This document shows positions 33,649-49,216 of a DNA stretch of 64,000 nt, piece after piece; position 1 is the first letter of the stretch; the number at the start of each line of letters is the position of its first letter. Position numbers and translations under genes: made by a program. Source of the stretch: Lachnospiraceae bacterium YSB2008 (GTDB lineage: Bacteria; Bacillota; Clostridia; Lachnospirales; Lachnospiraceae). Location of the stretch: contig JHWR01000007.1 in NCBI GenBank assembly GCA_000687655.1, positions 62,001 through 126,000 on the forward strand. The letters are read 5' to 3'. The notes under the pieces are model-generated. The model did not search any database and was not told the origin of the DNA. It saw only the letters and a list, made by a program, of their open reading frames with translations.

Positions 33649-36600
33649 ATGGGTGACTCTTTAAATGATAACAACGGTTACATATCAGAATCTGATCATG
33701 AAATATATAGCAATATAGCAGGAGCTCTCGCCAGTCGCTATGAAGCTATCTATTATATTGATAAGGAAACGGGAAATTATATACAGTACAGCGCAAGCAA
33801 GGATTATGCAAAGCTTGGAACTACCAAGCAGGGTAAAGATTTTTTTAAGGACGCTGTAAACGATATCAGAAGATTTGTTTATTCTGATGATTCAGAGCGT
33901 CTTCTTAAAGAAATGAATAAAGATCGCCTTCTGACTAATCTGTCAAATGATGGTTTCCTTTCATTTACATACAGGCAGCTTCTTAATAATAAAATACAGT
34001 ATGTAAGCATGCAGATAGTGTGTCCTAAGAATGATGACAGACATATACTCATTGGAGTTACTAACATTGATTCTCAGATAAGGCGAGAGAAAGCTATGGC
34101 AGACGAGGGAGCTATATTTAGTGAGATAGCACTTGCCCTTGCGAAACGTTATGAGGTTATATACCTGGTTGATATAAATACGAATGAGTATTCTGAGTTC
34201 AGTGCCAGTGAAAAATACTCTAAGCTTAAAGTGGGAAGCAAAGGAAAGGATTTCTTTGCTGAAACACAGGTCAATATGAAGAGGGATATATATCCTGAAG
34301 ACTATCCTATGATGGCTTACTCCATGCAGAAGGATCATCTTCTTGAGAGTCTTAAAGATACCGGAAAGAATATGCTGAATTACAGGCTGATGCTTGACGG
34401 ACGTCCTCAGTATGTAACTCTCTTCGCGGTTCAGCCGAATGAGAATTCTGAAACAATCATCATAGCGGTTGCAAATATAGATACCGCTAAACGTATGGAA
34501 GAGAATCTGGAAGAGGTTCTCGATTCGGCTATGGATGCGGCTAACAACGATGCGCTGACGAATTTCAAGAATAAAAGATATTATGCTCAGACAGAAATGA
34601 CCATAGATAAGGAAATTGAAGATGGAAAAAAGCCTGAGTTTGCTATACTCGTCTGTGATATAAACGGGCTTAAGAGGGTAAATGATAGGTTAGGACACAG
34701 CGCCGGAGATGATTTCATAAAAGATGCAGCACAGCTTTTGACTGATGTTTTTGAGAACAGTACTATATTCCGAATTGGTGGGGATGAGTTTCTGATTATT
34801 CTCAGAGGAGAGGAATACAAGGAACGAGTAAAACTTATAGATCGCCTGAAGGCCAGAAACAGGGTTAATTACGATGCAAATAAGGCTACCATTGCATTTG
34901 GAATGTCAGACTTTAATCCTGATAAGGATCTTAGAGTTCAGGATGTCTTTGAACGAGCAGATGCAGCAATGTACGATACGAAGAGGATACTTAAGCATCT
35001 GTATGCCAAAGAAGAAGACCGTAGCGAAATCGTGGATAGTGAGACGTACAGCTTTTATAAGCTTTTTGGAGAGCTTGTGTCTGCTATGACAAAGATGGAT
35101 AGTCTGGACTATAATATGATAAGGCAGATTATCAGTGATATATCAAATATGTTCAGACTCTCAAGAGGGGTTGCAAGATTATATCGTAATCCGCAGGAAG
35201 AAGAATCCGGTGGCGGAGAGACTATAACTACCACATATGATCTGAATATAAAGGATAAACAGGTTATTTTCCTTCGCATAGTTACAAGTGTAATGTCTAT
35301 AGGAACTATAGCTGTCTATATGGCTGAAGATGAGAAACCGCTTTCTGATGTAGAGTATTCACGGGTTGAACTGGTTATGAGGACAACTCTGAGTTACCTG
35401 ACAAGAAACCGACTCAGGGATATAGTTGAGGAATTGACATACTCTGATGAGTCAGGTTTTCCAAACTTCCGTAGTTTTAAGAAATACATCATGAAGAATA
35501 GGATGAAGCTTGGCGGTAAGGTTGCAGTCAGATATAATCTCAGACATTTTAACCTTGTAAATCTGGAGAAGGGCAGAAGAATCGGCGATATAGTAATGCG
35601 CGGTCACTATGAAGGTCTGAAAAATATGATCGGAGATCATGGAACTGTAGGAAGGCTTGGTGGAGATAATTACGTTGCAGTTTTTGAGAGAGAGCAGATG
35701 GGAAATGTTTTATCTTACCTTTCAGAAGCTCCAATAGTTTATGATGTACATGACGGACGCTATATAAATGTTGCAGCAAGTGTTGGTGTTTACTGTATGC
35801 CTGATGATTTTGTACTGACCAACATCGGAGAAATCATGGAGAAGATTATTCCGGCCTATACTGCCGCAAGAAGTGGAAATGCTGAAAAAATAGTATTCTA
35901 TGACGATTCGCTGCTTATCAGTCGTGAAAAGAGTATGCGTGTACAGCAGATGTTCCCATCGGCTCTTCGCCACGAGGAGTTCCTGGTTTATTATCAGCCA
36001 AAGGTCAACATAGAAACGGGTGAACTTGTAGGTGCAGAAGCTCTCTGCAGATGGAAGCATGCCGGTAAGATAATTCCACCCGTGGACTTTATTCCTATGC
36101 TTGAGGAAACGAGCGATGTTTGTAAACTTGATTATTATGTACTTGAGCATGTTTGCCGAGACATAAGAAGATGGATAGATGAAGGACGAAAGGCAGTACG
36201 TGTATCGGTCAATTTTTCTCGAAAGCATATGATGGATGCGGATCTGACAGAATCTATACTGAAGATTGTTGACAGATATAAAGTTCCTCATGATTATATA
36301 GAGATAGAACTCACTGAAACAACGACGGACGTTGAATTCGTTGATCTGAAGAGAGTTGTTAATAAACTTCAGGAAGCAGGTATATATACATCGGTAGATG
36401 ATTTTGGTGTGGGGTACTCATCACTTAATCTTATAAAAGAGATGCCTTGGAATGTTCTTAAGGTTGACAGGAGTTTCCTTCCTTCAAATTCGGAAGATTT
36501 TGATAATTCAAGAAGCACCATATTCAAGCATTTAATAGCTATGGTGAAAGAAATCGGACTTGAGTGTATTGTAGAGGGTGTGGAAACAAAGGAACAGCTT

Positions 36601-36717
36601 GATATTCTAAGGAATAATCGCTGTGAGCTGGCACAGGGATTCATTTTCGATAAACCGCTTCCGGTTGCTGATTTTGAATCGAAGCTGAATGACGGTTTCC
36701 GATATGAGATTCCATAG
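33649..36717 (+). CDS. tandem PAS-like / GGDEF / degenerate GGDEF / EAL protein
   Basis: 1022-residue soluble protein of cyclic-di-GMP metabolism. Two similar PAS-like sensory repeats (about 20-140 and 155-285; both contain RYE-I-Y--D and a GKDFF motif) precede an intact GGDEF domain (G377-F381, RIGGDEF). A GAF-like stretch (about 470-590) is followed by a second, degenerate cyclase domain (GGDNY at 671-675) and an EAL domain with E797-A-L, LTETTTD, DDFGVGYSS and KVDRSF, all suggesting active phosphodiesterase. It may both make and degrade c-di-GMP under control of the PAS inputs. No membrane segment is seen. RBS is GGGG-rich; the gene is monocistronic. Confidence 0.92.
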   Translation: MGDSLNDNNGYISESDHEIYSNIAGALASRYEAIYYIDKETGNYIQYSASKDYAKLGTTKQGKDFFKDAVNDIRRFVYSDDSERLLKEMNKDRLLTNLSNDGFLSFTYRQLLNNKIQYVSMQIVCPKNDDRHILIGVTNIDSQIRREKAMADEGAIFSEIALALAKRYEVIYLVDINTNEYSEFSASEKYSKLKVGSKGKDFFAETQVNMKRDIYPEDYPMMAYSMQKDHLLESLKDTGKNMLNYRLMLDGRPQYVTLFAVQPNENSETIIIAVANIDTAKRMEENLEEVLDSAMDAANNDALTNFKNKRYYAQTEMTIDKEIEDGKKPEFAILVCDINGLKRVNDRLGHSAGDDFIKDAAQLLTDVFENSTIFRIGGDEFLIILRGEEYKERVKLIDRLKARNRVNYDANKATIAFGMSDFNPDKDLRVQDVFERADAAMYDTKRILKHLYAKEEDRSEIVDSETYSFYKLFGELVSAMTKMDSLDYNMIRQIISDISNMFRLSRGVARLYRNPQEEESGGGETITTTYDLNIKDKQVIFLRIVTSVMSIGTIAVYMAEDEKPLSDVEYSRVELVMRTTLSYLTRNRLRDIVEELTYSDESGFPNFRSFKKYIMKNRMKLGGKVAVRYNLRHFNLVNLEKGRRIGDIVMRGHYEGLKNMIGDHGTVGRLGGDNYVAVFEREQMGNVLSYLSEAPIVYDVHDGRYINVAASVGVYCMPDDFVLTNIGEIMEKIIPAYTAARSGNAEKIVFYDDSLLISREKSMRVQQMFPSALRHEEFLVYYQPKVNIETGELVGAEALCRWKHAGKIIPPVDFIPMLEETSDVCKLDYYVLEHVCRDIRRWIDEGRKAVRVSVNFSRKHMMDADLTESILKIVDRYKVPHDYIEIELTETTTDVEFVDLKRVVNKLQEAGIYTSVDDFGVGYSSLNLIKEMPWNVLKVDRSFLPSNSEDFDNSRSTIFKHLIAMVKEIGLECIVEGVETKEQLDILRNNRCELAQGFIFDKPLPVADFESKLNDGFRYEIP

Positions 36718-39161: not shown

Positions 39162-39190
39162 TTGACACTTTGGCCTAAATCAAATATAAT
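39162..39190 (+). promoter_or_regulatory. consensus sigma-A promoter of the kinase/phosphatase/FHA operon
   Basis: TTGACA (39162-39167), exactly 17 bases, TATAAT (39185-39190): a perfect match at both elements, followed 41 bases later by the first kinase ATG. It implies steady, strong transcription of the seven-gene unit. Confidence 0.85.
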
Positions 39191-39231: not shown

Positions 39232-41781
39232 ATGAATGAAAAATATCCACTTGCGCTGCCGGAGGGTACAGCCCTAGCCGGTCAGTATATAATAGAAAAA
39301 GTTCTGGGGCAGGGTGGTTTCGGTATCACCTATAAAGCTGTTGATCATAATTCAGGTCAGTACGTTGCAGTAAAGGAATTCTTCCCGGACAGTATGGCTA
39401 CGCGAAATGGAACGACGGTCATTCCATTTTCAGGCGAAAGAGGAGAAAGCTATGTCTATGGTAAAGGCTGTTTCCTCCAGGAGGCTGAGACGCTCGCGCA
39501 GTTTATTGGTAACGATAATATAGTCAGAATATTTACTTATTTTGAAGAAAATGGAACGGCCTACTTTGTTATGGAGTATGTCGAAGGAACTTCCTTCGAT
39601 GTCTATATTAGAGAGCATGGCGGAAGACTCAGCTTCGATGAAGCGGCAGCGGTTCTGGTTCCTATTATGGATGCACTCTATGCTGTTCATCAGAAGGGAA
39701 TAGTTCACAGAGATGTTACTCCGGACAATATTTATATAACGAACAGTGGCGTGGTTAAGCTTCTTGATTTCGGTGCTGCGAGATACAGTCTCGGAGATAA
39801 GAGCCGAAGTCTTGATGTAGTTCTTAAACATGGATTTGCTCCTAAGGAGCAGTATACAAGGCGTGGTAAACAGGGACCTTTCACAGATGTTTATTCCCTG
39901 GGAGCAACCTTCTACTATGCTATCACAGGAAAGAGACCTCCTGATTCAGTTGAAAGAATGGATGACGATTCACTCATTCCTCCAAGTAATCTGGGAGCAA
40001 ATATCGGACGTGTTCCTGAACAGGCGATACTGAATGCCCTGAACATACAGCCACAGGACAGATTCCAGTCTATGAAAGCCTTCAAAAAGGCCATGTATGA
40101 TTCTCAGGTTATAGATGCCCAGGAGAAGAATGCATACGGAACAGCTTATTATCCGAATACTCAGGTTCAGCCTAATCAGTTCGCAGGACAGAACGGACCG
40201 GGTTACGGAAGCAGCAGTCTTGGCGGAACATATGGTAACAGTAATGTTCAGCCTGCACAGTATGGCAATGCCGGTGGACAGCCTACTCCATATGGTAACA
40301 GTGCCGGACAGCCTGCACCATACGGAAACAGTGGTTATGACCAGAGGGCGTATGGGCCGAGTCAGCAGGGTGGAAACAGGAATGTAGGTCCAACAACACC
40401 TTATAATGCCGGTCAGACTACACCTTACAACGGTGGTCAGACTACACCATACGGATCGGGTGGTAATCAGGGAAGTTACCCATCAGGTGGTTCGTACGGC
40501 GGTGGAAGTCAGAAGAAGAAGACTAATATTGTTCCTATTATAATAATAGCAGCTTCTGTGTTAGCTGTACTGATAGCAGTAATCATCATAGTTGCTTCCA
40601 AAGCACGTAAGCCGGAACCGACAACGGTTGCCGTGAATACAACGACGGAAACAACCACAGCAACAACAGAAACAACCACAAGTCACCGGGATACGGTTGA
40701 TCCATTCCCTGGCACGACGAGTCCGACTACAGATACTACGACCGAAACTACGACTGAAACTACAACCCAGACCGGAAACAGTGAGACTTATCCGGAGATT
40801 CTTGGAAATGAACCGACGAATCTTGCTAACATGGGGCTTTGTGCAGTAGATGGAAACGGTCAGGAATACGATGCTGATTACAAGGGACAGAGACTTCTGA
40901 AATATGTTGAAAATGGTGATGATGAGGTCCTTGTTTCAGGAAAGTATATATGGAATCTGAGTATCGTTGATAACACTATATACTATATAGGCGGTCGACA
41001 TGCCTATACATGTGGATTGGACGGAAGTAATGATACGTTGATTCCGGAGCTTTCTGCTTACGGTGATGTCGAGAATCTATACGTAACAAAGGATTATTAC
41101 TTTGCACTCAGAGTTGATTCAGCAAGTGATGTATCCAGACTTCTTTGTGTTGAAAGAGGGTCGGGAACTCTGTTATATGAGCTCAAGCTGGACCGCGAAT
41201 ATGACTCTGATGCAGATCTTGGTATGAGACAGGTTACATTTACCGGAGGATGCGTATACTATCTGCTTACTTCTGCTGATGGAATCACATATGACAGCAG
41301 TCAGAAACAGTGCCTTTGGATGCTGCCTGCAGGAGATATGGCTAATTCGACTCCTAAGAAGATAGTTTCATATAACAAACACTGCAGCGAGATAACAGCC
41401 GAAGGTGACTACGTATATTATATGTTCGGTGACAAAGGCCATGGCTACGGACTTGCCATGATCGATATCAAGAACATTGAAATAGTTGGTGATTTTGCGT
41501 TCGACGAGAATACATATGACATGACACATATGGTTGTCAGAGATAAGAAACTTGCATTCTATTCTGAGAACAACGGAACTGTCTCAGTATGTACGGTAGA
41601 TGCTATACCGAATGCCGAAAGCTGGACTATTAATACAATTAAGTCGTTTGAAACAGATGAGGGTTTCTGGGGCCTCACTGTTAAGAAAAATGGATACTAT
41701 ATACTGTCACAGGATTTAGGACTTCAGTACATGGGTCTTGAGGGTGGCGGATATACGATAATATCTGATGTAGATCAGTAA
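39232..41781 (+). CDS. transmembrane Ser/Thr protein kinase with propeller-like outer domain (copy 1)
   Basis: 849 residues. The cytoplasmic Hanks-type kinase (about 18-285) has the glycine loop GQGGFG (26-31), K48, HRD (D161, VHRDVTPDN), DFG (D179) and HGFAPKEQY in the activation segment, so it should be active. A Gln/Gly/Tyr/Pro-rich juxtamembrane linker (about 300-425) leads to a membrane helix (about 435-462), a Thr/Glu stalk (about 470-515) and an outer domain (about 525-849) with repeated VYYLL/IYYIGG strands like DUF5050-type propellers. The outer part probably senses a ligand or wall state. It heads the operon; a paralogue follows after 29 bases. Confidence 0.92.
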   Translation: MNEKYPLALPEGTALAGQYIIEKVLGQGGFGITYKAVDHNSGQYVAVKEFFPDSMATRNGTTVIPFSGERGESYVYGKGCFLQEAETLAQFIGNDNIVRIFTYFEENGTAYFVMEYVEGTSFDVYIREHGGRLSFDEAAAVLVPIMDALYAVHQKGIVHRDVTPDNIYITNSGVVKLLDFGAARYSLGDKSRSLDVVLKHGFAPKEQYTRRGKQGPFTDVYSLGATFYYAITGKRPPDSVERMDDDSLIPPSNLGANIGRVPEQAILNALNIQPQDRFQSMKAFKKAMYDSQVIDAQEKNAYGTAYYPNTQVQPNQFAGQNGPGYGSSSLGGTYGNSNVQPAQYGNAGGQPTPYGNSAGQPAPYGNSGYDQRAYGPSQQGGNRNVGPTTPYNAGQTTPYNGGQTTPYGSGGNQGSYPSGGSYGGGSQKKKTNIVPIIIIAASVLAVLIAVIIIVASKARKPEPTTVAVNTTTETTTATTETTTSHRDTVDPFPGTTSPTTDTTTETTTETTTQTGNSETYPEILGNEPTNLANMGLCAVDGNGQEYDADYKGQRLLKYVENGDDEVLVSGKYIWNLSIVDNTIYYIGGRHAYTCGLDGSNDTLIPELSAYGDVENLYVTKDYYFALRVDSASDVSRLLCVERGSGTLLYELKLDREYDSDADLGMRQVTFTGGCVYYLLTSADGITYDSSQKQCLWMLPAGDMANSTPKKIVSYNKHCSEITAEGDYVYYMFGDKGHGYGLAMIDIKNIEIVGDFAFDENTYDMTHMVVRDKKLAFYSENNGTVSVCTVDAIPNAESWTINTIKSFETDEGFWGLTVKKNGYYILSQDLGLQYMGLEGGGYTIISDVDQ

Positions 41782-41810
41782 ATATATACACAGGCAGGAG
41801 AACAAAAGAA

Positions 41811-44324
41811 TTGAGCGAAAAATATCCACTTGCGCTGCCGGAGGGAACAGCCCTCGCCGGACAGTATATAATTGAAAAAGTTTTAGGACAGGGTGGCTTC
41901 GGTATTACATACAAAGCCGTTGATCATACCTCAGGTCAGAATGTTGCCGTAAAGGAATTCTTCCCGGATGCAATGGCCACAAGAACAGGAACAACAGTAG
42001 TTCCTTTCAGTGGTGAGAGAGGGGAGAGTTTTGAATATGGTAAGGCCTGCTTCCTTCAGGAAGCTGAGACACTTGCCCAGTTCATAGGCAACGAGAATAT
42101 AGTCAGGATATATACATATTTTGAGGAAAATGGAACGGCCTACTTTGTTATGGAATATATCGAGGGAACTTCGTTCGATGTATATATCAAGGAACATGGC
42201 GGAAAGATAACTTTCGATGAAGCGGCTGCAGTTCTTATCCCTATAATGGATGCTCTGAATATAGTTCATTCCAAGGGTATAGTTCACAGAGATGTTACTC
42301 CTGATAATATTTATATAACTAACAGCGGCGTGGTTAAGCTTCTTGACTTCGGCGCGGCAAGATACAGCCTCGGTGATAAGAGCCGAAGCCTTGATGTCGT
42401 TCTTAAGCACGGATTTGCTCCTAAGGAGCAGTATACAAGACGTGGTAAGCAGGGGCCTTATACTGACGTATATTCACTTGGTGCCAGCTTCTACTTTGCT
42501 CTTACAGGCAAGAGACCTCCTGATTCTGTTGAACGAATGGATGAGGATGAGCTTGTTCCGCCAAGTAACCTTGGTGCAAAGATAGGCCGAGTTCCTGAAC
42601 AGGCTATACTGAACGCACTGAATGTTCAGCCACAGGACAGATTCCAGACCATGGCAGCCTTCAAAAATGCCATGCTCGGCGCGCAGGTCATAGACGCACA
42701 GGAGAAGGCGGCAGCGGGTACCAATACAGCATTATATAACAACCAGTTTGGTGGCGGCGGCTCCTATGGTGATCAGACATCATATGGAAATCAGCAGACA
42801 TCATATGGAAATCAGCAGACATCATATGGCGGCCAGCAGAATTCATACGGCGGCCAGCAGAACTCGTATGGCGGCCAGCAGAATTCATACGGTGGCCAGC
42901 AGAACTCTTATGGCGGTGGTTCATACGGCAGTCAGTCAGGATCATATCCCGGTGGACAGAATACACCATATGGTTCAGGCGGCGGCAGCTACAGTAGTAG
43001 TCAGAAGGGTTCATATAACGGCGGCGGCAACTATCCGAATAAGACTGTTGCGGCAAAGAGCAGTTCAAGTAAGAACAATGGACTTATGATAGGACTTATC
43101 ATAGGTGGAGCGGTTCTGGCGGCAATAATCATATTTGTCGTAATAATTGCCGCATCGAGTAGCAAGAAGAAACAGGAAGCAAAGAATACAACGGAGTATA
43201 CTACTCAGGCTACAACAACCGCTACCGATGACACTACATATACAACAACTGAAGCTGACACTACAGATACAACTACGGAAGCAACGACTGAAACGACTAC
43301 GGAAGCAACCACGGAAGTGGCAACCGGTGATATGTATCCGGATATATACGGTGTTCCGGATAATATCTGCTATGGTGGACTGCTTGCTTTCTCAAGTGAC
43401 GGTCAGGAGTTCGATATAGACAGAAAGAACAGTCGAATTCTTAAGTACGTTTCCGGCGGAGACGATATAGAAATAGATTCCGGAAGCAATGTATTTGCCC
43501 TCAGTGTTGCAGGAAGCAGACTGTACTACATAAAGAATAATGTTGCATGGTCCTGTAATCTTGATGGAACCGGAAAAGAGATGGTACCTGAACTTCTCAG
43601 TTTCTCTGATCTTGAGCAGTTATATGTATCAGATGATTATTTCTTCGCTTACAGATGTAGTTCCAGTAAAAGAGTCAGCAGACTTGTTCAGGTTTCAAGA
43701 ACCACCGGAAAGACCGTAGGTGAAATGATATTCGATTACGAGTCTAACGGCGACGAATTTATAGGAAGCTATTTATTCACACTTAATGGAGGATATCTCT
43801 ATTATATAGGCAAATCTTCAGACGGAAGGACATATAATTCTTCTGAACAGAACAGGCTCTGGAGAATCCCTCTCGGAAATCTGGGCGGCACTCCTGAGGA
43901 TACAAATGTCAGGATCAAGTGCGACTGTGAGGAGGTTATTTCTAACGATGATTATGTTTTTATCCTCTGTGGAACTCATTACAATGCGTCGGAGATAGTG
44001 GCTGTTTCACTTTCGGATTTCTCAATAGTGAACGACGCACTTTGGGACAGCAATACGTACACATTCTCATATCTGAATGTAAGAAATGGACAGCTTGCTC
44101 TTATAGGATATGAAGGGGGCAAAACCGGTATATATACTATAGATATTTCCTCATCAATGACGAATTGGACTGTAGTAAAGTATGCTCCTCTTGATGATCT
44201 TGGATTCTGTTTCGATCTGAATGTGATAAAGAATGGATTTTTCATTGCAACAACAGAAAGAGGAACGGTGTTTATCCCTGATGAAGGAAATAACTTCGTA
44301 TATATTGGCGAAGATGATAATTGA
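41811..44324 (+). CDS. transmembrane Ser/Thr protein kinase with propeller-like outer domain (copy 2)
   Basis: 837 residues with the same layout as copy 1: kinase (18-285; K48, D161, D179 all kept, VHRDVTPDN identical), low-complexity linker with six SYGxQQ(T/N) units (21-bp DNA repeat at 42780-42905), membrane helix (about 422-450), TTE stalk (about 460-505) and outer strand-rich domain (about 515-837). The kinase parts are nearly identical in protein and DNA, whereas linker and outer domains have diverged, so a tandem duplication was followed by change of the sensor. Start is TTG with GGAG ten bases upstream. Confidence 0.92.
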   Translation: MSEKYPLALPEGTALAGQYIIEKVLGQGGFGITYKAVDHTSGQNVAVKEFFPDAMATRTGTTVVPFSGERGESFEYGKACFLQEAETLAQFIGNENIVRIYTYFEENGTAYFVMEYIEGTSFDVYIKEHGGKITFDEAAAVLIPIMDALNIVHSKGIVHRDVTPDNIYITNSGVVKLLDFGAARYSLGDKSRSLDVVLKHGFAPKEQYTRRGKQGPYTDVYSLGASFYFALTGKRPPDSVERMDEDELVPPSNLGAKIGRVPEQAILNALNVQPQDRFQTMAAFKNAMLGAQVIDAQEKAAAGTNTALYNNQFGGGGSYGDQTSYGNQQTSYGNQQTSYGGQQNSYGGQQNSYGGQQNSYGGQQNSYGGGSYGSQSGSYPGGQNTPYGSGGGSYSSSQKGSYNGGGNYPNKTVAAKSSSSKNNGLMIGLIIGGAVLAAIIIFVVIIAASSSKKKQEAKNTTEYTTQATTTATDDTTYTTTEADTTDTTTEATTETTTEATTEVATGDMYPDIYGVPDNICYGGLLAFSSDGQEFDIDRKNSRILKYVSGGDDIEIDSGSNVFALSVAGSRLYYIKNNVAWSCNLDGTGKEMVPELLSFSDLEQLYVSDDYFFAYRCSSSKRVSRLVQVSRTTGKTVGEMIFDYESNGDEFIGSYLFTLNGGYLYYIGKSSDGRTYNSSEQNRLWRIPLGNLGGTPEDTNVRIKCDCEEVISNDDYVFILCGTHYNASEIVAVSLSDFSIVNDALWDSNTYTFSYLNVRNGQLALIGYEGGKTGIYTIDISSSMTNWTVVKYAPLDDLGFCFDLNVIKNGFFIATTERGTVFIPDEGNNFVYIGEDDN
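42780..42905 (+). repeat. six 21-bp tandem repeats in the kinase linker
   Basis: Units begin at 42780, 42801, 42822, 42843, 42864 and 42885 and encode SYGNQQT (twice) then SYGGQQN (four times). Third-position differences show that the repeat is partly aged; copy 1 of the kinase lacks the regular array. Confidence 0.9.
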
Positions 44325-44374
44325 TACTAAAGACAGATAAAATGTCTTACATATAATAAAGGAGGTATATTAAT

Positions 44375-45124
44375 ATGGCATTAGTGGAGTGTGCAAATGG
44401 ACACCTTTACAATACTGACCAGTATGCATCATGCCCTTACTGTGGCGGAACTATGAACCGCGTAGAGTTCGGATATGGTGGAGACAGTAGTATAGGTAAG
44501 ACTGCTCCAGCCGGTTTCGGAGCTACAGCAGCACCATCGGGGTATGGTGCAACAGCAGCACCATCAGGCTACGGCTATGGGGGAGGCGGATACGCACCGG
44601 GACCTGAGTATGGCGCAACAGTAGCACCTGCAAGCTATGGGTATGGGGCACCCGGAGGATTCGGTGGTGGCGAAGATATAGGTGCAACAGTAGCACCGTC
44701 AAGCTACACTGATTCACAGAAGCAGGAGACATCAGACGAGGATACAGGTAAGACTGTAGCAGTTCTGAAGAAGAGTCTCAACGTTGATCCTGTTGCAGGA
44801 TGGATCGTATGTATTGAGGGAACAGATAAGGGTAAAGATTTCCGCATCCTGGCTAAGAATAACAGTATTGGCCGTAGCGAGAAGATGGATATCTGTATCA
44901 AGGGTGACACGACTATATCTCGTGAGAATCATGCCAAGATAGCTTATGACGTTAAACACAATACATTTCATCTTATACCTGCCGACAGCACGAACAGCAT
45001 TTATCTGAACGGCGAGCCTGTATATGTTCCTACAGTTCTCGAAGCAAATGATGTTCTGGAGTTCGGCGAGAGCAAATTCATGTTTGTGCCTTTCTGCAGT
45101 GAGAAATTTACATGGCAGAGTTAA
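44375..45124 (+). CDS. zinc-ribbon / FHA domain protein
   Basis: 249-residue cytoplasmic protein. Residues 1-30 form a putative zinc ribbon (C6...H10...C20PYC23). A Gly/Ala/Tyr-rich segment with ATxAPSxYG repeats (about 45-115) contains many Thr residues that could be phosphorylated, including a DEDTGKTVAV stretch (about 122-131). The C-terminal FHA domain (about 150-245) shows SIGRSEKMDICI, TISRENHAKI and NSIYLNGE and should bind phospho-Thr. In the operon it is the natural reader of kinase output. RBS AAGGAGG. Confidence 0.88.
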   Translation: MALVECANGHLYNTDQYASCPYCGGTMNRVEFGYGGDSSIGKTAPAGFGATAAPSGYGATAAPSGYGYGGGGYAPGPEYGATVAPASYGYGAPGGFGGGEDIGATVAPSSYTDSQKQETSDEDTGKTVAVLKKSLNVDPVAGWIVCIEGTDKGKDFRILAKNNSIGRSEKMDICIKGDTTISRENHAKIAYDVKHNTFHLIPADSTNSIYLNGEPVYVPTVLEANDVLEFGESKFMFVPFCSEKFTWQS

Positions 45125-45139
45125 TAATGGAGTTATGAT

Positions 45140-45907
45140 ATGCAAGGTGAGCAGAATTTATCATATAGGCTTGGCAATCTTCAGGGCGTAGGAGCAAGAA
45201 AACGTCAGGAGGATTCATTCGCTGTTGCAAATGCATTTGATGTTAATATGATCAGAGAGCAAGGACTGTTCTTCACCGTCTGTGATGGTATGGGTGGTAT
45301 GAAGGATGGCAAGCTTGCAAGCGAGACAGCAGTGGCAAGTCTCAGAAATTCATTTATGGAAATGGACCGTAACGGGGATATATCATCCCAGCTCAGAGAC
45401 AGTGTGTTTAAGGCGTCGGAAGCGGTATTTGATGTTATAGGAGGCAGTGGCGGAAGTACTACTGTAACCGGCATCATCTATAAAGAGCAACTGTACTTCT
45501 CAAGTGTTGGAGACAGCTACTTCTTCCTTCTCAGGAAGGGCAGGCTTTACAGGCTTAATCATGAACATAACTTAAGACATGAGAAATTCCTGTCTGCGAT
45601 ACGTTTCGGAGATATGGATCCGTCTAAGTACATGAACATTCCTGAAGCTGAAGCTCTTACACAGTTCCTGGGTATGGACGGTATGTCAGATGTTGACTGT
45701 ACCGTAAAACCGTTCCCTCTTCTTAGGGGTGATGTGCTTATGGCCTGCTCCGACGGAGTCGGCGGAGTACTCACGGAAGACGAAACGAGAAGGTGTATGT
45801 CCTTTGTTTCCGAAAGGTCCATGTGCCAGCAGATCGAACAGTTCCTGGTTGCTCATGCAAGAAGAAATCAGGATAATTATACGGCACTTATAGTTAAATG
45901 TATTTAG
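45140..45907 (+). CDS. PP2C-type Ser/Thr phosphatase (first)
   Basis: 255-residue soluble metal-dependent phosphatase. PP2C motifs: GARKRQEDSF (motif 1), FFTVCDGMGGMKDG (metal Asp), SVGDSYFFLL, ACSDGVGGVL and RRNQDNYTALIV (metal Asp). It should remove phosphate from Thr/Ser added by the kinases. It differs from the second PP2C gene in length and sequence, so the two probably serve different substrates. Fifteen bases separate it from the FHA gene. Confidence 0.92.
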   Translation: MQGEQNLSYRLGNLQGVGARKRQEDSFAVANAFDVNMIREQGLFFTVCDGMGGMKDGKLASETAVASLRNSFMEMDRNGDISSQLRDSVFKASEAVFDVIGGSGGSTTVTGIIYKEQLYFSSVGDSYFFLLRKGRLYRLNHEHNLRHEKFLSAIRFGDMDPSKYMNIPEAEALTQFLGMDGMSDVDCTVKPFPLLRGDVLMACSDGVGGVLTEDETRRCMSFVSERSMCQQIEQFLVAHARRNQDNYTALIVKCI

Positions 45908-45931
45908 AGTTTTATGAAAGTGAGGAAGAGT

Positions 45932-47299
45932 ATGAAAAGTAGAATGAAGAAATGGTTAGGCGTACTTGTACTTGCAGCCTTCATGGCTTTCGGAGTGCTG
46001 CCAATCAAGTCATCCGCAGCATTTGATACAGGTGTTAGAGATGGTGTTTGCGTTGTTACATCATATCTTATTGATGCAAGCACAGGACTTATTTATGACG
46101 GTGGACAGGGTTCAGGCTTCTTTATAGGTGAGCTTGACAAGAATCCTGAATATCTTATAACAAATCACCATGTTGTTGATACTTATCTCAATTATGGTAA
46201 AGGTGAGAAGTGGCAGGCTCAGCTTACAAACGGAAGTGTTGTGACTGTAAGAGCAACTGTAAGAGTTTACTTTACAGGTGTTGAGTTTGTTGAAGCAAGA
46301 GTTATTGATTATGATGATGTAGCTGACGTTGCAGTTCTCAGAATTGCATCTCCTACAGATCAGAGAAAGGCTCTTCCACTTCACGTTCCTACAGATAATG
46401 ACGTAGGAAGCACATGCTACTGTGTTGGTTACCCTGCAATAGCTGAGAACTTCTATAAGGAAGCTACATCTTCATGGAAGAAGGAAGACTCCAGTGTAAC
46501 AACAGGTACAGTCAGCCGTCTTATCACAATAGCAGGTACAGGCGTTAAGGCTATACAGACAGATGCTCAGGTTAATCATGGAAACTCAGGTGGACCTATG
46601 GTTAATGACGCAGGTGAGGTACTTGGTATCAATTCATGGGGAGTTCAGAATACTGAAGGTGAGCAGGAGAATTACGCATGTGATATCTCTGAAGTAACAT
46701 CAATCCTCAGCAGAAATAATATTACTTACGTTGAGGGCGCAGGTACAAATACTGACCCTTCTACAGAGGATCCTACTACAGAAGCTCCTACACCTGAGAA
46801 GAAGAGTGGTCTTTCAACAGGCGCACTTATAGGTATTATCGCAGGCGCACTTGCTGTTATAGCTGCAATCGTTGTTATCATAATTGTTGCTACAGGAAAG
46901 AAGTCAGCTCCACAGGCAGCACCACAGGCAGCTCCACAGCCAATGCCTGGTCCAATACCTCAGGCAGCTCCACAGAAGAGAGCTATGCTCAGATCAATGT
47001 CTACACAGCATGGTGGTCAGACATTCCCTGTTGGTTCAACACCTGTTATGATTGGTAGAGATCCATCAAGCTGTACTATCGTATATCGTGAAGGTACAGC
47101 AGGTGTCAGTGGAAAGCATTGTCAGGTACAGTTTGATGCAGGTTCAGGTAACTTCATCATTACAGACCTTCGTTCATCTTATGGTACTTTCCTTATGAAC
47201 GGAACCAAGCTTCCTGCAAATACACCATATCAGCTTAAGGCTGGTGACAGTTTCTATGTTGGTGACAAGCAGAACGTTATACGTACTGAATTGGGGTAA
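45932..47299 (+). CDS. secreted trypsin-like protease joined by a membrane helix to a cytoplasmic FHA domain
   Basis: About 455 residues. Signal sequence (1-30), an extracytoplasmic trypsin-like protease domain (about 35-265) with His in LITNHHVVD, Asp in DYDDVADVAVL and Ser in NHGNSGGPMV, a Thr/Pro-rich stalk, a membrane helix (about 298-325), an Ala/Pro/Gln linker and an FHA domain (about 355-455: VMIGRDPSSCTI, VSGKHCQVQF, SSYGTFLMNG). The ATG at 45932 has GAGGAAG upstream; the ATG at 45914 has none. Phospho-Thr binding inside the cell could thus control or localise a protease outside. Codon use (GCAGGT, CTT, ACA) differs mildly from neighbours, hinting at high expression. Confidence 0.9.
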   Translation: MKSRMKKWLGVLVLAAFMAFGVLPIKSSAAFDTGVRDGVCVVTSYLIDASTGLIYDGGQGSGFFIGELDKNPEYLITNHHVVDTYLNYGKGEKWQAQLTNGSVVTVRATVRVYFTGVEFVEARVIDYDDVADVAVLRIASPTDQRKALPLHVPTDNDVGSTCYCVGYPAIAENFYKEATSSWKKEDSSVTTGTVSRLITIAGTGVKAIQTDAQVNHGNSGGPMVNDAGEVLGINSWGVQNTEGEQENYACDISEVTSILSRNNITYVEGAGTNTDPSTEDPTTEAPTPEKKSGLSTGALIGIIAGALAVIAAIVVIIIVATGKKSAPQAAPQAAPQPMPGPIPQAAPQKRAMLRSMSTQHGGQTFPVGSTPVMIGRDPSSCTIVYREGTAGVSGKHCQVQFDAGSGNFIITDLRSSYGTFLMNGTKLPANTPYQLKAGDSFYVGDKQNVIRTELG

Positions 47300-47302
47300 A
47301 AC

Positions 47303-48022
47303 ATGATAGATGTATATGAATACACTAACCAGGGTGGACGCAGCTACAATGAGGACTCAGTTGGCTCTGTATATAAGGACAATACAGGAATCTTTGTAGT
47401 TGCTGACGGACTTGGTGGTCATGCCTTCGGTGAGGTCGCATCTTCGTGTGCAAGAGATACAGTGCTCTCGGATTGGAAGCCGGGAGCACAGGATCCTGTT
47501 GCATGGTTTAACGCGGTCATAACAAAGGCAAATAACAATATATTACAGCTCCAGCAGGAGAAGGGTGAGATCATGAAAAGCACGATAGTAGCCCTTTCTC
47601 TGGATAACGGAAGAGCTGTATGGGCTCATTCGGGAGATTCCAGACTTTATTACTTCCACGACGGATTGATTGCTGAATTCACAGATGATCACAGCGTTGC
47701 ATATAAGAAGTATAAAGCCGGAGAAATCGAACGTGATGAGATAGCAGATGATGACGATCAGTCAGCGCTTCTCAGGACTCTTGGAGGTCCTGACAGGTTT
47801 GAGCCGGATGTCTTCGTTCTGCCGCATCAGGTTGAGGTGGGAGACGCTTTCTTCCTGTGCTCGGATGGTGCGTGGGAGTTTCTCCGTGACGAAGAGATGG
47901 CAGTGGATCTTGCTAAGGCAGATGACGCAAAGCACTGGGCTGAGCTCATGCTTCTTCGAATGATGGACAGAATAAAGGGTGGCAATGATAACCTGACACT
48001 TCAGACTATCATTATCAAATAA
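47303..48022 (+). CDS. PP2C-type Ser/Thr phosphatase (second)
   Basis: 239-residue metal-dependent phosphatase: GRSYNEDSVG, FVVADGLGGHAFGE, AHSGDSRLYYF, FLCSDGAWEFL, GNDNLTL. All metal-binding aspartates are in place. Three bases separate it from the protease-FHA gene, so translation is coupled. Most similar to stand-alone Stp/PppA-type enzymes that reverse PknB-type kinases. Confidence 0.92.
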   Translation: MIDVYEYTNQGGRSYNEDSVGSVYKDNTGIFVVADGLGGHAFGEVASSCARDTVLSDWKPGAQDPVAWFNAVITKANNNILQLQQEKGEIMKSTIVALSLDNGRAVWAHSGDSRLYYFHDGLIAEFTDDHSVAYKKYKAGEIERDEIADDDDQSALLRTLGGPDRFEPDVFVLPHQVEVGDAFFLCSDGAWEFLRDEEMAVDLAKADDAKHWAELMLLRMMDRIKGGNDNLTLQTIIIK

Positions 48023-48051
48023 GCATAAGTCACGTAAGGGGGTAACCTGTT

Positions 48052-49173
48052 TTGAAAAGAAAATTAATACAGAAAATTCTTATCGTGGCATTTGCAATCG
48101 TTATGATGATTGCCATTCCATTTAAAACAAATGCCGCAAAAGGCACACCGGGTGGTGAGAACGGTACAACCGAAACAACTACTGAAAAGCCCGGAAAGAC
48201 GACTGAGTCAACAACTGAATCAACTACAGAACCAAGTGTATTAAAACCGGGACAGCCGCCGGCCTTAACAGAAGAGCCGTCAACGGATGAGGAACCGGGA
48301 GCGGGCGATTCACAGGAGCCTACAACAGAGGCAACCACTGAAAAACCTGGTAAAACGACTGAGTCAACTACAGAGGCTGATACAGATGATTCAGAGACAA
48401 CTACTGAAGAAACAACAAAGCCTAAGAATGAAGACAGGACTGTAGAAGATAAGACAGAGAAAAGTGATAAGGACCTTATTGCAACTAAAGGCGACCCTGA
48501 TAAAGATAAAGAAGGAAAGAGCATTCCTACTACATTTATTATTATCGGTGTTTGTGCACTCGTTGTAATAATCGCACTTATTGTAGTTATTGCAGTTCTC
48601 CTGTCAGCTCGCAAGAAGAATTCGGCACCGGTAACTACTGTAACGCCGGATATACCGCCAAATGATTTTGATGATACACTGCCACCTATTCCGCCGGCAT
48701 TTGCAGCAGGCGCAGCGGACGGAAACAGCGGAGTTCTTGCAGGTCAGGCGGTTGGAGCAAACAGTGGAGTCCTTGCAGGCCAGGCAGTCGGAGCAGGCAG
48801 CGGAGTTCTTGCAGCAGGTGCTGCAGCAGCGGCTGTAAATGCAGTAAGACCGGATGCGACAGTACAGGCGCCTGGATCATTGCCTATTCAGCTCGATATT
48901 TATAATGGCGAGTCACCTACAGGAAGCAGGACACTGTATATGGCACAGGATCTCATCATAGGAAGTGGTCCGAACTGTGATATCATATTCAGTGAGCCTT
49001 ATGTATCAGGTCAGAATACAAGAATATTCCTTCAGAACGGAACAGTTATGATAGAGGATATGAATTCTACCAACGGTACTTATGCAGCAGGACTCAGAGT
49101 GAATAAGGCAGCACCACTTAAGAGTGGTGATGTAATATCCATAGGAGAAGCAGAATTCTGTTTGAAATTCTAA
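48052..49173 (+). CDS. membrane protein with TTE stalk and C-terminal FHA domain
   Basis: 373 residues. Signal sequence (1-27), an exported Thr/Glu/Pro-rich region (about 28-135; ETTTEKPGKTTESTTE-type repeats), a membrane helix (about 160-185), an Ala/Gly repeat linker (NSGVLAGQAVGA units, about 223-257) and a cytoplasmic FHA domain (about 280-373: LIIGSGPNCDII, SGQNTRIFL, NSTNGTYAAG). It has no enzymatic domain and may be an adaptor tethering phosphoproteins to the membrane. TTG start at 48052 with AAGGGGGT eight bases upstream. It is the last gene of the operon. Confidence 0.85.
   Translation: MKRKLIQKILIVAFAIVMMIAIPFKTNAAKGTPGGENGTTETTTEKPGKTTESTTESTTEPSVLKPGQPPALTEEPSTDEEPGAGDSQEPTTEATTEKPGKTTESTTEADTDDSETTTEETTKPKNEDRTVEDKTEKSDKDLIATKGDPDKDKEGKSIPTTFIIIGVCALVVIIALIVVIAVLLSARKKNSAPVTTVTPDIPPNDFDDTLPPIPPAFAAGAADGNSGVLAGQAVGANSGVLAGQAVGAGSGVLAAGAAAAAVNAVRPDATVQAPGSLPIQLDIYNGESPTGSRTLYMAQDLIIGSGPNCDIIFSEPYVSGQNTRIFLQNGTVMIEDMNSTNGTYAAGLRVNKAAPLKSGDVISIGEAEFCLKF
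48724..48816 (+). repeat. 36-bp coding repeats (NSGVLAGQAVGA)
   Basis: Two full units (48724-48759, 48760-48795) and a partial third (to 48816) in the linker between the membrane helix and the FHA domain. Confidence 0.85.
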
Positions 49174-49186
49174 TAATGATTATTCT

Positions 49187-49216
49187 TACGCCGGGTTTTT
49201 ACCCGGCGTATTTTTA
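49187..49216 (+). terminator. rho-independent terminator of the kinase/FHA operon
   Basis: 10-bp stem TACGCCGGGT (49187-49196) with ACCCGGCGTA (49201-49210), followed by TTTTT. Confidence 0.9.

Follow-up and report, generated by a model that had tools for sequence, protein, structure and literature searches.

The DNA analysed here is a 64 kb window of contig JHWR01000007.1 from Lachnospiraceae bacterium YSB2008, and its positions 39232-49173 hold an operon of receptor kinases, phosphatases and FHA proteins that raises one question: do these genes form a single signalling pathway, and what does it act on? We put at about even odds (a probability of roughly 0.5) the reading that the operon encodes a modular transmembrane phosphothreonine (pThr) signalling system, in which a single helix joins an HtrA-like protease, predicted to lie outside the cell, to an FHA domain in the cytosol. 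These odds rest on a conserved gene order and on a conserved threonine, Thr127, in a zinc-ribbon FHA protein (ZR-FHA). Judged from its sequence, the operon is a real, conserved and self-consistent module, new as a combination although its parts are known, and no description of a ZR-FHA/PP2C/trypsin.TM.FHA module (TM, transmembrane helix) was found in the passages seen of the open-licence literature searched.

The locus consists of seven open reading frames (ORFs) on the + strand with intergenic gaps of 29, 50, 15, 6, 3 and 29 bases, which Pfam and NCBIfam identify, in gene order, as two Pkinase (Hanks) proteins, an FHA protein, a PP2C phosphatase, a trypsin plus FHA protein, a second PP2C and a last FHA protein (Table 1). 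An earlier note on this DNA had described seven same-strand genes with gaps of 3-50 bases between a perfect sigma-A promoter and a strong terminator, and this description was confirmed by the ORF positions, by the promoter, to which the window has no second exact match (0.02 expected), and by a 10-pair stem with a T-tail. By simple hydropathy, the sole basis of the membrane topology given here, four of the seven products cross the membrane, as had also been claimed: both kinases have one helix each, and the protease and the last FHA protein each have an N-terminal hydrophobic segment and one helix.

Table 1. Positions of the operon's genes and signals in the 64 kb window
Feature	Position	Strand	Description
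Sigma-A promoter TTGACA-17-TATAAT	39162..39190	+	Sole exact match in 64 kb; shuffles expect 0.02
STK1	39232..41781	+	Kinase ~10-300; G/S/Q/Y/T-rich linker; helix from ~430; Thr-rich stalk; predicted propeller ectodomain ~512-849
STK2	41811..44324	+	TTG start; tandem paralogue of STK1
ZR-FHA	44375..45124	+	Zinc ribbon C6, H10, C20, C23; variable linker with Thr127; GarA/OdhI-like FHA domain
Codon of Thr127, predicted phospho-switch site	44753..44755	+	T in 36/38 aligned ZR-FHA proteins
PP2C phosphatase a	45140..45907	+	Pfam/NCBIfam
Tryp.TM.FHA	45914..47299	+	Signal-like segment; HtrA-like trypsin (predicted outside); helix from ~298; cytosolic FHA
PP2C phosphatase b	47303..48022	+	Stp1-like; NCBIfam score under cut-off
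TM-FHA	48052..49173	+	TTG start; signal-like segment; Thr/Glu-rich outer part; helix from ~155; degenerate FHA
Intrinsic terminator	49187..49210	+	10-pair stem, then T-tail

Operon-type copies were found in 5 of the 61 genomes of the genus, namely the source genome, G059 (which holds the contig of locus L024), G035 and G016 at 72-75% identity, and G010 at 45%; the protease query matched 57 of the 61, its own included, most of these matches being weak and HtrA-like. L024, from an uncultured Lachnospiraceae metagenome-assembled genome, has all seven genes in the same order. L063 has six genes with a single kinase, L064 six with an incomplete kinase, and L065 a five-gene version (kinase, ZR-FHA, PP2C, protease, PP2C) with a protease about 45% identical. 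Among 61 annotated loci (L024, L055-L094 and L099-L118), the consecutive trio PP2C-Tryp.TM.FHA-PP2C was present in 10, a count that is not a prevalence, because many loci were fetched for other reasons and the ORF caller skipped some genes that other ORFs overlap (among them those for ZR-FHA in L085, L110 and L112, found by other searches). These ten are the four congeners, L075, L078 and L081 from three other genera of the family, and L099, L102 and L110 from three other families, and their gaps are mostly short (-35 to 205 bases). The longer order ZRFHA-PP2C-Tryp.TM.FHA-PP2C was seen in seven loci (L024, L063, L064, L065, L075, L078 and L081). The earlier note had staked its proposal of a dedicated transmembrane phospho-signalling device on a gene order shared with relatives, and the order kept in four congeners, complete in L024 and shorter in the other three, with a core that recurs outside the genus, supports that proposal. 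Related sets are patchily distributed among relatives, and at E<=1e-10 the ZR-FHA family has members in 36 of the 250 family genomes, or 35 of the 249 genera, and in 31 of 398 phylum genomes.

The zinc ribbon of ZR-FHA was read from conserved Cys/His residues, and its four predicted zinc ligands are invariant in the 38 aligned proteins (L074 and one L087 protein were left out of alignment A6). The pThr-binding residues of an FHA domain are present in the window protein as R167, S182 and N212, with one additional residue within the SxxH motif, and they are kept in 36, 36 and 33 of the aligned proteins, respectively. Thr127 tops the conservation among linker columns 26-138 (36/38, the next-best column reaching 26/38), is kept in 29 of 30 non-redundant sequences (<60% identity) and, in 31 of the 38, stands directly before V, I or M. 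With the four rows that had no anchor dropped, T[VIL] was found near the FHA domain in 27 of 34 proteins, whereas 500 shufflings averaged 10.2 and never went above 19. In the AlphaFold model, Thr127 is unplaced, within a low-confidence stretch.

The closest solved relatives of ZR-FHA are GarA (2e-8) and OdhI (7e-7), and its top fold match is GarA, from a PknB-complex entry; the NCBIfam OdhI model scores it at 28.6 bits, under the cut-off of 200, the likeness being one of fold and conserved Thr only. That Thr stands ahead of the FHA domain in both cases, and kinase recruitment through the FHA domain has been published for GarA/OdhI: according to the available text of PMC8546545, PknG has a disordered extension whose pThr recruits them, and it phosphorylates the Thr of their ETTS motif. 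ZR-FHA differs from GarA and OdhI in its zinc ribbon, its long variable linker and the residue inserted in SxxH, and in the match to these solved relatives Thr127 did not align with ETTS. GarA has a role in the tricarboxylic acid cycle, for which no counterpart was seen at the operon. Zinc finger and FHA are also combined in a protein of the kinase/phosphatase network of Sulfolobus ArnA-ArnB (PMC6509490), although there, in the text available, the finger is of the four-Cys RanBP2 type, the partner is a vWA protein and the network controls archaellum expression.

The protease is an HtrA-like trypsin, with a Trypsin_2 match at 4.6e-25 and H86, D138 and S225 invariant in 7 of 7 aligned sequences, and remains under the cut-off of the degP NCBIfam model (77.9 of 416.2 bits). 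Its FHA domain retains GR and SxxH, with Tyr replacing the Asn of SxNGT. When the trypsin-FHA proteins of related loci were compared, the H and GNSGG triad motifs were detected in 20 of 23, and three kinds could be told apart: ZR-linked, T7-type (usual gene order protease-PP2C-kinase-short TM protein) and a reversed FHA-TM-trypsin form (L066-L069). The protease and the FHA are placed on opposite sides of one helix in both domain orders, the topology of the reversed form being unchanged. In the second protease tree, built with 16 of 24 HtrA rows and without L094, L102 and one of the two L091 rows, a branch (94/93) separates the T7-type rows from the rest, with L094 among them in an earlier tree. 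The reversed proteases are placed with plain HtrA (99/96), which suggests a separate fusion event. In the 250 family genomes, the protease query at E<=1e-15 matched 44, mostly via the FHA part, and 18 besides the source hold both parts.

Both kinases belong to the Hanks type (Pfam 8e-34 for STK1 and 3e-34 for STK2), and GxGGFG, K48, HRD, N166 and DFG are invariant in 6 of 6 aligned kinases. The two proteins are 88% identical in the kinase half and 34% in the propeller half. Their catalytic loops both read HRDVTPDN, with Thr replacing the Lys of the textbook HRDxKPxN, and the 82 kinases from the 61 related loci have at this position S in 40, K in 13, T in 10, A in 3, N in 1 and G in 1, the motif not being found in 14. 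On these alignments, Ser or Thr there (50/82) is a habit of the clade rather than the textbook motif. PknB_PASTA was the top-scoring NCBIfam model for the window kinases, at 155.6 and 157.8 bits, under the curated cut-off of 450, and Pfam gave no PASTA match in either.

The outer domains of the kinases, for which the earlier note had suggested structure prediction, are modelled as a seven-bladed beta-propeller, with a fold match to a solved seven-bladed propeller. Foldseek with the propeller returned many unrelated propellers at low TM-score, and a second fold search ranked 3s25 first. The DUF5050 propeller (PF16472) scored 19.5 bits in STK1, short of the gathering score of 27, and was not listed for STK2. 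The window kinases resemble mycobacterial PknD (kinase-TM-beta-propeller) in having the kinase inside and the propeller outside; a weak one-blade profile match links the ectodomain to PknD (E 0.09), and PknD was not among the 50 propeller fold matches listed, which excludes nothing. The suggested envelope or host-glycan sensing is not supported. The ectodomains are exchanged among related kinases, with MORN in L081, PASTA and Flg_new in L089 and three DUF5050 in L091; no recognised ectodomain family was found in the L083 kinase.

The tandem kinase genes (window 39232-44324; L024 3440-8414) have kinase halves that are closer in DNA within each genome (81.9 and 80.6% nucleotide identity) than between orthologues (78.0 and 78.6%), and the propeller halves mostly do not have such an excess of within-genome likeness. 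Gene conversion of the catalytic halves is possible. It is opposed by the second orthologue pair, W2-N2, whose kinase halves share 92.3% protein identity, more than any within-genome pair, and by the L024 propeller pair being about as similar (41.7%) as the W2-N2 propellers (42.6%) at the protein level.

The metal-binding motifs ED, DGxGG, SDG and DN of PP2C enzymes were seen by eye in both phosphatases. TM-FHA has FhaB as its top NCBIfam model (7e-18, 65 of 125 bits) and lacks the features of a pThr-binding FHA: in 4 of 4 orthologs Ser stands where the phosphate-binding Arg would be, further binding residues vary, and binding of pThr by this protein is unlikely. The earlier note had described the catalytic motifs as intact. 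This can be kept for the PP2C metal motifs, the trypsin triad and GxGGFG/K48/HRD/N166/DFG of the kinases, and has to be given up for the catalytic-loop Lys (Thr), for the Asn of the protease FHA (Tyr) and for the Arg of the last FHA. Likewise, of the Arg, Ser and Asn by which that note proposed to judge the FHA domains, R, S and N are present in ZR-FHA and Arg is missing from the terminal one, one of three.

In the proposed pathway, the propellers of STK1 and STK2 would each bind a different cue outside the cell and feed into one common output, because the sensor halves diverge far more than the kinase halves. The activated kinases would phosphorylate Thr residues in their own linkers, and the phosphorylated linkers would dock FHA domains, a step proposed by analogy with the docking of GarA/OdhI by autophosphorylated PknG. 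The kinase would then phosphorylate Thr127 of ZR-FHA, which may fold onto its own FHA or be bound by another FHA and so switch its partner. At the membrane, the FHA domain would gather or gate the protease from inside, and phosphorylation inside would alter proteolysis outside. The two PP2Cs would reset the marks on kinases and readers, and the degenerate FHA of TM-FHA could act as a phospho-independent scaffold.

Several observations weigh against this pathway. Thr127 is a conserved Thr only: the aligned Thr of L084 and of one L094 protein lacks the motif (by eye), and in 18 further ZR-FHA proteins T stands in the Thr127 column in 8, K/R-T-[LM] lies one residue off in 8 more (raw sequence, by eye), L108 is ambiguous and L118 has no Thr motif in the raw sequence read by eye. 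The stretches surrounding the Thr-less ZR-FHA genes (L092, L093 and L118), in which no kinase was found, speak for the pathway; against it, the genes of L101, L109 and L113 keep the Thr, yet no kinase was found in their stretches. The Lys of HRDxKPxN is absent from the kinases, and their activity is therefore assumed. The propeller is rare, being present in 3 of 250 family genomes including the source. As for the protease, the triad motifs were not detected in the trypsin-FHA proteins of L102 and L094 and in one of L091, and the tree does not unite the ZR-linked rows in a single clade. Moreover, the grouping of reversed proteases with HtrA joins long branches, as the program warned, and the HtrA rows alone also form one side (100/100), so that the trypsin-FHA fusion may have arisen once and been rearranged later.

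Known systems offer other readings. The operon could be a second PknB-type regulator of cell-wall growth or division, comparable to the actinobacterial pknA-pknB-pstP-fhaA-fhaB cluster; this is unlikely, if the least so of the alternatives weighed here. The mycobacterial cluster (fhaA, fhaB, pstP, rodA, pbpA, pknA, pknB) unites, in the available text of PMC6554272, the same three activities in seven genes, with two receptor kinases, one PP2C and two FHA proteins; the FhaB match of the terminal FHA and the PASTA of the L089 kinase point the same way. However, the operon has no rodA or pbpA, has a propeller in place of PASTA, adds a second PP2C, a protease-FHA fusion and a zinc-ribbon FHA, and exists as an operon-type copy in just 5 of 61 genus genomes, while a separate PP2C-kinase pair is found on contig C8 of the source genome. 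PrkC/Stp pairs of Bacillota also combine a receptor kinase with a PP2C, and PknB_PASTA and Stp1 are the best NCBIfam models here, but the scores are under the curated cut-offs, PASTA is missing, and FHA proteins and a protease are added. The operon is indeed larger than such a pair, as the earlier note had said, although that note overlooked as precedents the seven-gene mycobacterial cluster and the published T7SSc-j loci (PMC11217815). For M. tuberculosis, an earlier survey had noted FHA genes that cluster with those of kinases and phosphatases (PMC1262709). A plainer reading, somewhat less probable again, takes the kinases for a receptor set of the ordinary type, with FHA and protease parts that are inherited together but do different work and belong to no single pathway: L063 has a single kinase, gene order varies in distant relatives and one FHA is degenerate, but ZRFHA-PP2C-protease-PP2C is kept in order between distant genera with mostly short gaps.

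Slightly more doubtful still is the reading that the operon has become detached from a type VII secretion system (T7SS) of the T7SSe/j kind, as an accessory that would regulate T7SS assembly by phosphorylation. Published T7SSc-j loci contain genes for kinases, PPM phosphatases and FHA proteins, T7SSe carrying the kinase TseD, the PPM TseF and the FHA proteins TseJ and TseI (PMC11217815, in whose main text the word trypsin occurs 0 times). Contig C3 of the source genome has a T7SS-like locus with five WXG100 matches (three over the cut-off), an EssC-like ATPase with FHA, two kinases of its own, an Ig-like surface protein, a PP2C and a trypsin.TM.FHA protein 29% identical to the window protease, and relatives of the latter occur in the EssC-bearing loci L055, L123 and L125, where an EssC/FtsK-like gene was seen within the fetched DNA. 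In the 250 family genomes, EssC was found in 14 of 36 with ZR-FHA compared to 48 of 214 others, a weak association (p 0.058). In contrast, the WXG100 and EssC (E<=1e-60) matches of the source genome are on C3 only, with none on the window's contig, C7. Among the 18 family genomes with both protease parts, EssC at the same threshold is present in 9 of 9 T7-type and 3 of 9 ZR-type, the labels having been assigned from gene order with the EssC list already known (that of L128 is weak, its protease standing almost alone, and L094 is labelled ZR on account of its locus, although EssC is present in that genome and the L094 protease is placed with T7 rows). As EssC was missing from the other six ZR-type genomes (G157, G222, G230, G170, G113 and G201), a window-type set can exist without a T7SS, and the T7-type protease rows keep to one side of their own branch. 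An anti-phage or inter-bacterial conflict system is very improbable. The kinases match the PADLOC models PD-T4-6 and MAD6, the protease matches RT-protease and LmuA models, and conflict systems are reported to include kinase, trypsin, vWA and FHA domains (PMC7159879, available text). Nevertheless, the PADLOC matches reflect common kinase (E 5e-49) and trypsin folds, MAD6 reaches 135 of 460 bits, far below the NCBIfam cut-off, and by eye the neighbours resemble genes of purine and NAD metabolism; ZR-FHA was found in 19 of 72,556 plasmid records, none covering >80% of the query, and the protease gave two partial matches in 50,697 phage records. The anti-phage reading from PADLOC was set aside, its matches being at fold level, and a mobile-element reading found no support in the only pairings searched, ZR-FHA against plasmids and the protease against phages.

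The operon is located on contig C7 of a 2.69 Mb genome that has 10 Pkinase, 10 FHA and 5 PP2C_2 matches, and is therefore one among several phospho-signalling loci there; another, on contig C17, has FHA, PP2C and kinase genes with an Ig-like protein. These counts, together with the T7SS-like locus and its own trypsin.TM.FHA, show that such sets are not confined to the operon. By eye, the operon's neighbours resemble purC, a DUF4230 protein, nicotinate phosphoribosyltransferase and purE, flanks common to L024; no DUF4230-sized ORF lies immediately 3' of the operon in L063 and L064. Upstream of the operon (33649-36717 in the window), a 1022-amino-acid ORF looks GGDEF-EAL-like by eye.

Other arrangements of these parts were also seen. 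In the T7SS-like locus of the source genome (L055, G000:C3:12000-31900, and G000:C3:9385-10981), a trypsin.TM.FHA gene stands beside PP2C and kinase genes, with a similar order in other EssC-bearing genomes, and short membrane proteins of T7-like loci (L055 12393-12953, L056 9542-10459) have repeated E/D-T-x-L/V-L that looks, by eye, like FHA docking sites. L066, L067, L068, L069, L076 and L087 are clusters in which genes for kinases, PP2Cs, FHA proteins and zinc-ribbon FHA proteins number about ten or more, and vWA.TM.FHA and kinase.FHA fusions are present in some of them. L066 and L076 have an FHA.FHA.ABC transporter fusion, which is reminiscent of mycobacterial Rv1747, and L067 and L068 are similar by layout. 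A second widespread set (L092, L093, L101, L104-L109, L111, L113 and L118) has ZR-FHA, a small TM-FHA, a PP2C, a second PP2C that has a TM, and an approximately 880-amino-acid protein with a marginal DnaK match in L106 (E 0.004); extras are vWA in L092 and L106 and DnaJ in L092, most other scanned parts having no family name.

More tentatively than for the operon itself, and at odds we consider rather low, these loci may form a hitherto undescribed phylum-wide family of receptor-kinase modules that carry a phospho-signal back out of the cell, phosphorylated receptors recruiting an FHA domain tied across one helix to a surface protease (or, in sister clusters, to vWA or an ABC transporter), with the FHA-helix-protease arrangement apparently built more than once. 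If true, bacteria would have in such a family their own equivalent of the receptor kinases that work with phosphopeptide-binding adaptors. If the reading of the operon itself holds, proteolysis outside a Gram-positive-type cell would be under the control of phosphorylation inside, via a single-helix FHA-protease and swappable receptors. A common protease part would then connect stand-alone kinase operons with the phospho-control of T7SS variants, and the ligands and outputs of a patchy kinase set in Lachnospiraceae and relatives would become directly testable.

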